Source: Acidobacteriota bacterium
GTDB lineage: Bacteria; Acidobacteriota; Aminicenantia; Aminicenantales; Saccharicenantaceae
Assembly (NCBI GenBank): GCA_028749115.1
Contig: JAQURD010000004.1
Location: 112,082-153,406 of the forward strand
Direction of reading: 5' to 3'
DNA: 41,325 nucleotides
Shown here: one piece after another, positions 35,275 through 38,201 of the stretch
How the letters are laid out: the number at the start of each line of letters is the position of its first letter
Numbering within the stretch: the first letter of the stretch is position 1
Translations under genes and position numbers: made by a program
Notes under the pieces: generated by a model
Database searches by the model: none
Told to the model about the DNA's origin: nothing
What the model saw: only the letters and a program-made list of their open reading frames with translations

Positions 35275-35999
35275 AGGAGAAGAGGCAGTTGGTGGAGAGG
35301 AATAACGAGGAGATAGCGGTGGCCCGGCAGTGTGAGCTATTAAATCTTCCGAGGTCCTCATAATATTACAGCTCAAGGTTCAATGATGACTTTAATCTTG
35401 AGTTGATGAGGCTTATAGATGAACAGTTTACCAGAGCACCGTTTTATGGGGCAAAGAGGATGATAGCCTGGTTAAGGGCTCAGGGCTATGAGGTAAATCC
35501 CAAGCGAGTCAGAAGGCTTTTCCAGCGTCTGGGGCTTCAGGCCATCTATCCCCGTAAGAGAATAGGTTTTTCCTCTCCTGGTCATAAGCTTTACCCCTAT
35601 CTACTTGAGGGGTGAAGGTAGAGCGACCGGACCAGGTCTGGGGAGCAGACATAACCTACATTCGTTTGGCTCATGGTTTTGTATACTTAGTAGCGGTAAT
35701 GGACTGGTTTAGCCGTTATATTCTGTCTTGGGAACTCTCCAACACGCTGGATTCCAGGTTCTGTGCGGAGGCTGTAAAGGAAGCCCTCTGGACCTCCAGG
35801 CCTGAGATCTTCAACACCGATCAGGGAGTGCAGTTTAGCAGTCAGGAATTTACTGGTCTTCTTCAGGACTCCGAGATAAAGATAAGCATGGATGGTCCGG
35901 GGCCGGATATATGACAACATCTTTGTCGAGCGGTTGTGGCGGACAGTCAAGTATGAAGAGGTCTATCTTCATGAATACCGGGAGACTATGAAAAAGTAG
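35250..35999 (+). pseudogene. IS3-family OrfB (DDE transposase), multiply broken
   Basis: Read from the A9 slippery run, the -1 frame gives EEKRQLVERNNEEIAVARQC and LLNLPRSS, then a stop (TAA 35361-35363) and EQFTRAPFYGAKRMIAWL and the NPKRVRRLFQRLGLQAIYP block. A one-base loss near 35608-35612 shifts to VKVERPDQVWGADITYIR, which has the first catalytic Asp; NTDQGVQFSS gives the second. A one-base gain near 35893 shifts again to YDNIFVERLWRTVKYEE with the Glu, ending at TAG 35997-35999. All three catalytic residues are visible but not in one frame. Confidence 0.85.
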
Positions 36000-36226: not shown

Positions 36227-37714
36227 ATGAAGAAGGTTCTTTGGGTTTGTGTTCTTGTAATTCTTGTTTTGTTCCTCTTTTCTTTTAACCTCTCAGGTAA
36301 TGCCCAGCAACAGCAACAGCTCGACAGGATTACTCAATTAGCGAGGAAAGTTCATGGCGATTACCGTTCTCTTGTCACCGTTAGGAGGCTGAATATACCG
36401 GCTGCTGTTCAAGAGCAACAAAAGTTCTTGCTCGAGCAGCCAGAAGTTCAGGATGTGGTCAGGCTCAAAGGTTCAAATCTGATGGTCAGGTTCAAAGATG
36501 GAAATGAACTGCTGATGTTTCTGGGAGAAGAAAGGCTGGGTGATGAATTTGAGAAGGGAGGAGGCTTTGGTGCTCCGCCACCGCAGGTTCAGCAGAATAA
36601 ATTGCAGAGAGTAGAGCAGGCGATAGTCATGATAAGAATGCCCTGTGCAACTAATTCTAACAAGGCTCTCATTTTTGACTGTCTCGAAGATGATTACAAT
36701 GTTATCTCTCCCAAGATCTGGCAACAGGTTAAATCAAATTTAGAAACGCTGGGTTATACGTGCACTGTGTATCTCAATAATAGCGCTAATCTGGCTAATG
36801 CTGCTTTAATTGATGACGGGGAATATGGTGTTGTTTTCCTGCGCGGTCACGGAGGCGATCTGGGAGGAGATTTCGGTTTTTTAGTGAGGCCGTGGTATAC
36901 GAGCTATCCGCCTGCCAATAGCGGTTATACCGGCACGATTCGAGCCAGTGCCTACTGTGCTGCGGCTGGGCAGACACAATTTGGTTATGTCTTCACCGGG
37001 ACATTCAGCTCCACTTACTGGACAAATAAAACTTTTCCTGCTTCACTTTTCTTTCTGGAAAGTTGCCATGGGGCTGATCCTGGTGCCTTGCCCGGCATGC
37101 CTACCTGGACAATCAACCACGGTGCTTCCGTCTGGATTGGCTGGAACGAATCAGTGAGCTTCAACTGCGGTGACAATGGTTCCAAGCTCTTTTTTGAGAA
37201 AATGAAAGACCAGAAAAATGTGGATTACAGTTTAGGCGCGGTGTATGCAACCGGCTGCCGGCCGCCTGAACTTGTCAGCCATCCTTCGGGAAAAGGCAGT
37301 TGCCGTCTAAGTATATGGATTTCTGATCCTAACGAAGCCAGTAGCGTTGATTCCCGCGATTTTAAGCTGGTCAAATTGATAGCTGATTCAACGAATGCTT
37401 ACGTCAGAATAACATTCTATGCTGTGCCCAATTTCAACGAATTTTTCCTTTATGCCGATACGGGAGGAAGTAACGCTGCTGAAATAGCCATCAAGTGCCA
37501 TATGAACAATTTTGAAATCTATACCCAAACTGGTTCTGGCGTTTACGGCAATAAAGTTTTCACGGGCACCCCCTCTATAAGTGGAAATAATTACAGCTTG
37601 ACGATTCCCTGGGCAACAGCATTTGGCACGATTAATACTGTGAAATTCTGGTTGTACGATATGACCAGCCAGGATCGTGCTCCTGATAGTGGTAGCGCTG
37701 TGCTTAAGAAATAA
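36227..37714 (+). CDS. Secreted clan CD (caspase/gingipain-fold) cysteine peptidase candidate
   Basis: 495 residues with AAGGAGG upstream. Signal peptide 1-26 (cleavage near GNAQ), Gln-rich linker, then a module at 58-103 (IPAAVQEQQKFLLEQPEVQD and MVRFKDGNELLMFLGEERL) that recurs in the small lipoprotein 130 bases downstream. The central domain (about 130-345) has a hydrophobic strand ending VVFLRGHGG (H208) and a later strand ending LFFLESCHG (C280), the His-Gly and Cys arrangement of clan CD peptidases such as caspases, C11 and C25. A beta-sandwich-like C-terminal domain (360-495, CBM-like NEFFLYADTGG) follows. Catalysis and substrate are inferred, not shown; the leader is folded and an IS relic lies just upstream. 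Confidence 0.75.
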   Translation: MKKVLWVCVLVILVLFLFSFNLSGNAQQQQQLDRITQLARKVHGDYRSLVTVRRLNIPAAVQEQQKFLLEQPEVQDVVRLKGSNLMVRFKDGNELLMFLGEERLGDEFEKGGGFGAPPPQVQQNKLQRVEQAIVMIRMPCATNSNKALIFDCLEDDYNVISPKIWQQVKSNLETLGYTCTVYLNNSANLANAALIDDGEYGVVFLRGHGGDLGGDFGFLVRPWYTSYPPANSGYTGTIRASAYCAAAGQTQFGYVFTGTFSSTYWTNKTFPASLFFLESCHGADPGALPGMPTWTINHGASVWIGWNESVSFNCGDNGSKLFFEKMKDQKNVDYSLGAVYATGCRPPELVSHPSGKGSCRLSIWISDPNEASSVDSRDFKLVKLIADSTNAYVRITFYAVPNFNEFFLYADTGGSNAAEIAIKCHMNNFEIYTQTGSGVYGNKVFTGTPSISGNNYSLTIPWATAFGTINTVKFWLYDMTSQDRAPDSGSAVLKK

Positions 37715-37844
37715 TTTTGAAGCCATAAGCTCGAGCAGTTTAGACTGAATGGCTTAGACAGAATTTAAATATTGAGGCAGGAATTCGAGTAGATTCAGCG
37801 GGTGAAGGGGTCTATAATTAATAAAGATAATAAGAAGAAGCAAA

Positions 37845-38201
37845 ATGAAAAAAATAGCCTTTTCTTTAATTTTGGCCATACTTTTTTTAGGTTTTTCAGG
37901 TTGCCAGAGGCAAGGAGAGCAGAAGGCCCGTCCTGAGGCAGAAAAGGCAGGGGTAGAAGAGCCAAAAGCAGGAGAAACTGAAATTTTAGGTGTTGAGGAA
38001 ATCGCCAGGCAGGTGCAGGCCAAATATAGCGAGGCCATGGAGAAAAAGCTGCCTAAAGAAGAAGCCCTGAATGAAGCTGTCAAATTTCTCAAGCAGCAAA
38101 AAAATATTAAAGAGGTTAAGATTCTCGGTAGCGATTCAGTCATGGTTTATTTTACAGATGGAAATGAGCTGATGATCATGCTTGGCAAAGACCGAATTTA
38201 A
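37845..38201 (+). CDS. Small lipoprotein sharing the peptidase propeptide-like module
   Basis: 118 residues. Signal sequence with lipobox GFSGC (Cys20), a Glu/Lys-rich linker (21-48) and a C-terminal module (about 73-118: EEALNEAVKFLKQQKNIKEV, then VMVYFTDGNELMIMLGKDRI) that aligns with residues 58-103 of the peptidase 130 bases upstream; shared positions include GS, MV, F, DGNEL, LG and R. The lipoprotein ends exactly at the end of the module. A free-standing propeptide-like inhibitor or folding helper held at the membrane is the simplest idea; unproven. Only a weak ribosome site (AAGAAG) is visible. Confidence 0.75.
   Translation: MKKIAFSLILAILFLGFSGCQRQGEQKARPEAEKAGVEEPKAGETEILGVEEIARQVQAKYSEAMEKKLPKEEALNEAVKFLKQQKNIKEVKILGSDSVMVYFTDGNELMIMLGKDRI

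Follow-up and report, generated by a model that had tools for sequence, protein, structure and literature searches.

In Streptococcus pyogenes the gene of the cysteine protease SpeB is adjoined by that of Spi, which the cited passages of PMC2873492 call a propeptide analogue, and in Bacteroides the small proteins Bfi and Bti, some of them predicted lipoproteins, are encoded beside C10 proteases, as described there and in the cited part of PMC3462683. Isolated gingipain propeptides are reported to inhibit their own enzymes in trans, with Ki values of 12 nM and 2.04 μM (cited text of PMC3677877). For clan CD of the cysteine peptidases, the passages used from PMC12445089 list the MEROPS families C11, C13, C14, C25, C50, C80, C84 and C123, give the clostripain motif as His-Gly-(X)n-Ala-Cys, and describe YabG as being, like other clan CD proteases, without sequence homology to other members.

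Here we describe a pair of adjacent genes from an Acidobacteriota bacterium, located within a 41,325-nucleotide stretch of contig JAQURD010000004.1 (the window). As in the SpeB–Spi pair, the gene of a putative secreted cysteine protease lies beside a small gene for a candidate propeptide analogue (PMC2873492, in the part cited): the product of the small gene is homologous to the N-terminal pro-region of its neighbour, a region whose position suggests that it would be removed. A literature search found no published description of this two-gene cassette.

Two adjacent genes and their shared module

The first gene (36227-37714, + strand) encodes a putative secreted peptidase of 495 amino acids. 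It consists of a signal peptide (residues ~1–28), a module directly behind it (residues 34–104; 36326-36538, + strand), a variable linker (~105–138), a putative catalytic domain (~139–355) and a predicted C-terminal beta-sandwich (~375–495; 37349-37711, + strand). The second gene (37845-38201, + strand) follows after a gap of 130 bases and encodes a 118-residue protein made up of a lipobox (GFSGC, with Cys20), a linker and a second copy of the module (residues 49–118; 37989-38198, + strand). The coordinates of both genes and the length of the gap agree with those in an earlier note on this DNA, as do the positions of His208 within RGHGG and of Cys280 within LESC. Neither protein reached any Pfam or NCBIfam family up to E 1, and a search of solved chains (PDB sequences) gave no convincing match for the peptidase or for the module profile. 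Just upstream of the pair, at 35612-35914, lies an integrase core (rve) frame of 100 amino acids, apparently an insertion-sequence fragment; a related rve frame is also found within one relative region (L014).

The earlier note had described the shared module as 46 residues long and placed like a propeptide, with the lipoprotein ending where the module ends. The likeness and the placement behind the signal peptide both hold, and the homology is longer, covering about 70 residues (34/35–104 of the peptidase and 49/50–118 of the lipoprotein). BLASTP between the two proteins gave 52 bits (E 3e-13) in an alignment that also crosses the signal peptides; once these were removed, the local score was 111, compared to a mean of 28.5 (sd 5.3, maximum 58) for 2000 shuffles. 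A profile–profile comparison of the two kinds of module returned a probability of 98 and an E of 1.5e-13 over 70 columns. Together, the BLASTP, shuffle and profile–profile scores exclude a chance similarity or low-complexity artefact. The peptidase module is predicted to be helical in its first half and then to form three strands, and the lipoprotein module to form two helices followed by three strands, with a pLDDT of ~92–95 for most of its length and 79 for the last 8 residues. Columns that are conserved alike in both kinds of module are mainly hydrophobic, together with a DG turn. T36, H43, D45 and N84 are invariant in the 15 peptidase modules compared, whereas the commonest residues at these positions in the 16 lipoproteins compared are E, E, K and S (four near-duplicate or partial rows were dropped).

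The make-up of the lipoprotein is the same in the complete copies: a lipobox, a linker and the module only, with homology reaching the last residues in the window and in 17 of 17 complete copies (two of which have identical modules). In all 17 the export signal ends in a Cys preceded by A, G or S, with the lipobox Cys assigned by script and by eye (by eye where there were several Cys) and without a predictor. Judged by its lipobox, the product of the second gene is thus predicted to be a bacterial lipoprotein.

Within its own genome, which is 91% complete, the module was found solely in these two genes. A profile built from both kinds of module matched 4 of 396 genomes of the phylum at E <=0.01, namely the own genome (in two places) and three others with partial matches (E 6e-4 to 0.005), two of them in frames that we interpreted as encoding an FAD-type oxidoreductase and a protein resembling lysine aminomutase, and the third in L094. 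Apart from these three weak partial matches and a second, partial pair in one genome (G466), the module occurred in the searched genomes as part of the pair, which does not support a widespread repeat unlinked to peptidases, the outcome that the earlier note had named as speaking against its proposal. The window lipoprotein matched neither Inhibitor I9 nor any other Pfam propeptide family up to E 1; when 13 lipoproteins were compared with Pfam, the sole inhibitor family to appear was I78, for one member at E 0.064, which we took as chance.

Relatives, gene linkage and module history

A genome-contig scan identified 15 loci, 12 of which encode the full protein, with 49–68% identity overall and 66–77% in the catalytic part. 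These 12 comprise seven Chlorobiaceae-type records, two Geobacter MAGs, one Deltaproteobacteria MAG, Desulfobulbus rhabdoformis DSM 8777 and one Aminicenantes MAG. In all of them, as in the window, the lipoprotein gene is the next one downstream on the same strand, at a spacing that ranges among the loci from 16 to ~230 bases depending on the start codon chosen. At L019 the peptidase gene is cut by the end of the contig, and another contig of the same genome holds the rest together with the lipoprotein gene. L021 was dropped as a pattern artefact, since its match includes a stop as well as the very pattern used for the search. Searches of genomes added three complete pairs, one pair with the lipoprotein off the contig and one with the peptidase split over two contigs. 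For the close clade as a whole, the lipoprotein gene is next on the same strand in 18 of the 18 peptidases with visible downstream DNA. When the neighbourhoods of 17 regions were compared, the family of the pair was recovered in 16 (in L010 it is hidden by a longer overlapping frame, and three regions extend only ~1.5 kb to each side), and every other family occurred in four regions at most. The pair is a real two-gene cassette that is present in several phyla.

Two records, L007 and L019, are titled Deltaproteobacteria yet labelled Myxococcota by the tree tool, and the genome of L019 (G473) is grouped in the class of a Geobacter MAG (G470); the host assignments of both MAGs are uncertain. Directly upstream of the Desulfobulbus pair (L017:3-5242) lie two tandem copies of another gene pair, the second of which, the only copy scanned, encodes FAD, FlpD and ferredoxin domains.

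The survey of related genomes suggested in the earlier note bears out the linkage. All the loci except L017 (14 of 15) could be traced to a genome, and 12 of these 14 genomes match the lipoprotein profile, the exceptions being those of L020 and L021. Among the 86 genomes of the G469 family, which record and tree labels assign to Chlorobiaceae, the peptidase profile matches 10 and the lipoprotein profile 9, all nine of which are also positive for the peptidase; the tenth peptidase match (G522) is a 29-residue relic only. In the class of G470 (277 genomes) the five genomes with a peptidase match are identical to the five with a lipoprotein match. Over these two groups, 14 of 363 genomes carry both genes, none the lipoprotein alone and 349 neither, with G522 counted among the last; treated as independent draws, such a coincidence has a chance of ~1.6e-25, a figure that the relatedness of the genomes raises. 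A single peptidase module with a single lipoprotein is the usual complement of the pair-bearing genomes. The lipoprotein of G478 lies in two parts at two contig ends, and the lipoprotein profile failed to reach the module of the peptidase in G472.

Two observations concern incomplete copies. The 29-residue stretch in the G469-family genome that has no lipoprotein match (L068:1501-1587) is 97% identical to the peptidase and is probably a relic that persisted after loss of both genes. Besides its complete pair, G466 contains a second lipoprotein gene that follows the C-terminal 85 residues of another peptidase (L047, contig C83).

A distant relative is found in a Pelotomaculum MAG (L020:5044-6555), where a copper amine oxidase N-terminal domain is followed by the module and by pieces of the catalytic domain in a broken frame. 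We found no lipoprotein match in this genome; besides the broken frame, the MAG may be incomplete. Among 113 genomes of its class only this one matched, apart from a single genome in which the match was a C-terminal fragment.

No near relative was found in the window's own lineage. Among 34 genomes of the family the N-terminal part of the peptidase is present only in the own genome, and one other genome matches in the C-terminal domain only; among 94 genomes of the order the other 11 matches are partial (E 0.04 to 0.1), and among 396 genomes of the phylum there is one further peptidase match, again C-terminal only. Searches for a mobile carrier were negative: neither plasmids nor phages matched the peptidase, no plasmid matched the lipoprotein, and none of 57 pattern stretches in viral contigs was confirmed as a peptidase.

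In a tree of 18 peptidase and 17 lipoprotein modules, in which some long rows were flagged, the two kinds fall on opposite sides of a single branch (100/100). Across 15 pairs, peptidase distances and lipoprotein distances are correlated (Mantel r 0.82 for the whole proteins and 0.77 for the modules), a correlation that is also expected from simple joint inheritance. The lipoprotein module diverges faster, with a mean identity of 0.53 versus 0.68 for the peptidase module. The identity of a peptidase module to its own lipoprotein is 0.258, compared to 0.254 for the lipoproteins of other pairs, so that neither gene conversion nor matching within pairs, over and above descent, is indicated. The two-sided tree fits one old duplication, presumably from the peptidase module to the separate lipoprotein, that would have been followed by joint descent and transfer.

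The putative catalytic domain

His208 (codon 36848-36850, + strand) is present in 19 of 19 aligned rows and Cys280 (codon 37064-37066, + strand) in 18 of the 18 that reach this position. The His precedes the Cys by 72 residues in 17 rows and by 71 in one, and each of the two comes after a hydrophobic stretch. The distant Pelotomaculum sequence is informative here: of the His and Cys residues that are invariant in 17 full-length rows, five can be compared with it (H43, C140 and C359 fall outside the alignment), and H208 and C280 are kept, in the motifs GHGG and DAC, whereas H281, C314 and C344 are not. C280 is therefore the only one retained of the three comparable invariant Cys. The arrangement of a His beside Gly and then a Cys, each after a hydrophobic stretch, is the motif pattern of clan CD. 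The invariance of the two residues and their retention in so distant a relative support the His/Cys dyad proposed in the earlier note and constitute good evidence that H208 and C280 form a catalytic dyad; the evidence that the protein is a clan CD peptidase is moderate.

An AlphaFold2 model made with 13 close relatives has a pLDDT mostly below 50 for residues 102–319, and below 50 across 181–319, and the order of strands and helices before His208 in this low-pLDDT model is at most compatible with a caspase-haemoglobinase fold. No Pfam or NCBIfam model of the clan CD families was matched up to E 1 by the window peptidase or 13 members of its family, and none was listed up to E 10 when seven stretches of the catalytic domain were compared, in searches where the HMMER filters discard most matches above E ~0.1. 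The C10 family, to which SpeB and Bfp belong, likewise gave no match for the peptidase or its relatives in Pfam/NCBIfam.

The C-terminal part of the peptidase is predicted to be a beta-sandwich, as the earlier note had it, and finds generic matches only. Other large proteins of the genus and the order that seem to be secreted carry this domain too, at ~29–40% identity (L005, L006), and because of this recurrence it looks like a shuffled extracellular domain.

Possible roles of the pair and comparison with known systems

By analogy with SpeB–Spi, we propose, with about even confidence, that the pair consists of a zymogen-type secreted peptidase and a membrane-held, propeptide-derived partner that is probably its inhibitor. 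In this scheme, for which we infer fold, activity, zymogen processing, inhibition and cellular location, the first gene would encode a secreted cysteine peptidase, probably of clan CD, that is made as a zymogen. The 70-residue N-terminal module would occupy the position of a propeptide, the variable linker would be the likely processing region, and the C-terminal beta-sandwich may bind a surface or the substrate. The second gene would encode a lipoprotein with a relative of the module as its only domain, arising most simply by one old duplication and passed on together with the peptidase gene. The lipidated module would dock on peptidase molecules whose own module was lost prematurely, inhibit them and so protect the producer. 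A propeptide with a propeptide-derived partner is suggested by the module behind the signal peptide, the variable linker after it and the lipoprotein that ends with the module. The proposal as a whole is supported by the homology of the modules, the adjacency in 18 of 18 cases, the rarity of any other neighbour family, the shared presence, the two-sided module tree, the kept H208 and C280, and the precedents. Against it count the low pLDDT of the catalytic domain, the identity between modules that is not pair-specific, the faster divergence of the lipoprotein module, and the Pelotomaculum relative for which no lipoprotein was found.

A bolder extension, which we regard as rather doubtful, is that the pair represents a new clan CD family moving between phyla as a unit of enzyme plus immunity, in which the immunity protein would be a lipid-anchored duplicate of the propeptide and recipients would need both genes, as with toxin–immunity pairs.

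The different residues that are commonest at T36, H43, D45 and N84 indicate that the lipoprotein probably does not reproduce every contact of the peptidase module, and this leaves room for the lipoprotein to be an anchor or a foldase. As an anchor or receptor, it would hold the peptidase at the membrane by contact between modules that serve as pairing domains, with no inhibition. The related modules of both partners, the lipid anchor and the strict linkage all suit this idea, and the conserved residues differ in part between the two kinds of module, as they might between the halves of an asymmetric pair. It accounts less well for the propeptide position before a variable linker and for a lipoprotein consisting of lipobox, linker and module only, and we consider it unlikely. 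A membrane-held foldase we consider unlikely as well, and a little further from our expectation: here the module would be an intramolecular chaperone, and the lipoprotein a second copy that aids folding of the peptidase in trans and then releases it. The prodomains of cysteine proteases can aid folding (as stated in the cited part of PMC12445089), and the genetic evidence is the same as for an inhibitor, but the peptidase already has a module of its own and we found no second copy for the Pelotomaculum relative, although its gene is broken. A last reading, in which the catalytic domain is something other than a peptidase, or a peptidase outside clan CD, and the pair does something else, such as binding a surface polymer, would agree with the absence of a convincing peptidase match in Pfam, NCBIfam or PDB sequences and of a confident fold, but is very improbable given a His and a Cys kept in every row that reaches them (19/19 and 18/18), 71–72 residues apart and behind hydrophobic stretches, which are also the two of five comparable invariant His/Cys residues that the Pelotomaculum protein retains.

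If a peptidase and its propeptide-derived inhibitor are indeed what the cassette encodes, it offers a clean and testable case of an intramolecular regulator turned into a separate, membrane-held partner, the two copies having stayed together in hosts from several phyla. Should the fold be confirmed, the enzyme would also represent a new family of secreted clan CD peptidases without a Pfam model. Since a named strain, Desulfobulbus rhabdoformis DSM 8777, carries the pair, the choice between inhibitor, anchor and foldase can be decided with two small proteins.

Among described systems, those closest to the present pair include SpeB–Spi, of family C10 in clan CA. SpeB is papain-like, whereas the order of the dyad and the motifs in the present peptidase follow the clan CD pattern; Spi is thought to be cytoplasmic, according to the cited part of PMC3462683, whereas the present partner has a lipoprotein export signal; and inhibition has been reported for SpeB–Spi, whereas for the present pair it is proposed. 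The Bfp–Bfi and Btp–Bti pairs of Bacteroides, in which C10 proteases are accompanied by staphostatin-like inhibitors, also combine exported cysteine proteases with small exported partners. As far as the cited parts of PMC2873492 and PMC3462683 describe them, several of these proteases are co-transcribed with their partners, some partners are predicted lipoproteins, protection of the cell has been proposed, and two Bfp genes are on mobile elements. Unlike the present lipoprotein, however, Bfi has no significant identity to propeptides by these accounts, and the Bfp and Btp proteases, unlike the present peptidase, are mostly predicted lipoproteins themselves.

The gingipains RgpB and Kgp (C25, clan CD) resemble the present peptidase in being secreted and in having a His/Cys dyad, an N-terminal prodomain and a C-terminal Ig-like domain. 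Their prodomain has ~200 residues, compared to the 70-residue module here, and the text cited from PMC3677877 mentions no separate gene for a prodomain copy; the present proteins have no Pfam match to C25. With clan CD in general the present peptidase shares a His beside Gly and then an (Ala/x)-Cys, both behind hydrophobic stretches, yet no sequence-level match to clan CD models or solved chains was listed for it. Of the interpretation in the earlier note, the shared module, its propeptide-like place, the gene linkage, the dyad pattern and the predicted beta-sandwich stand, but its claim of a new arrangement went too far, since adjacent propeptide-like or lipoprotein inhibitors are known in other protease families (Spi with SpeB, Bfi with Bfp and Bti with Btp). 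Proteases that have a propeptide-like partner encoded beside them are thus a known kind of system, and what is new is the enzyme family, the lipid-anchored copy of the propeptide and the clan CD pattern.
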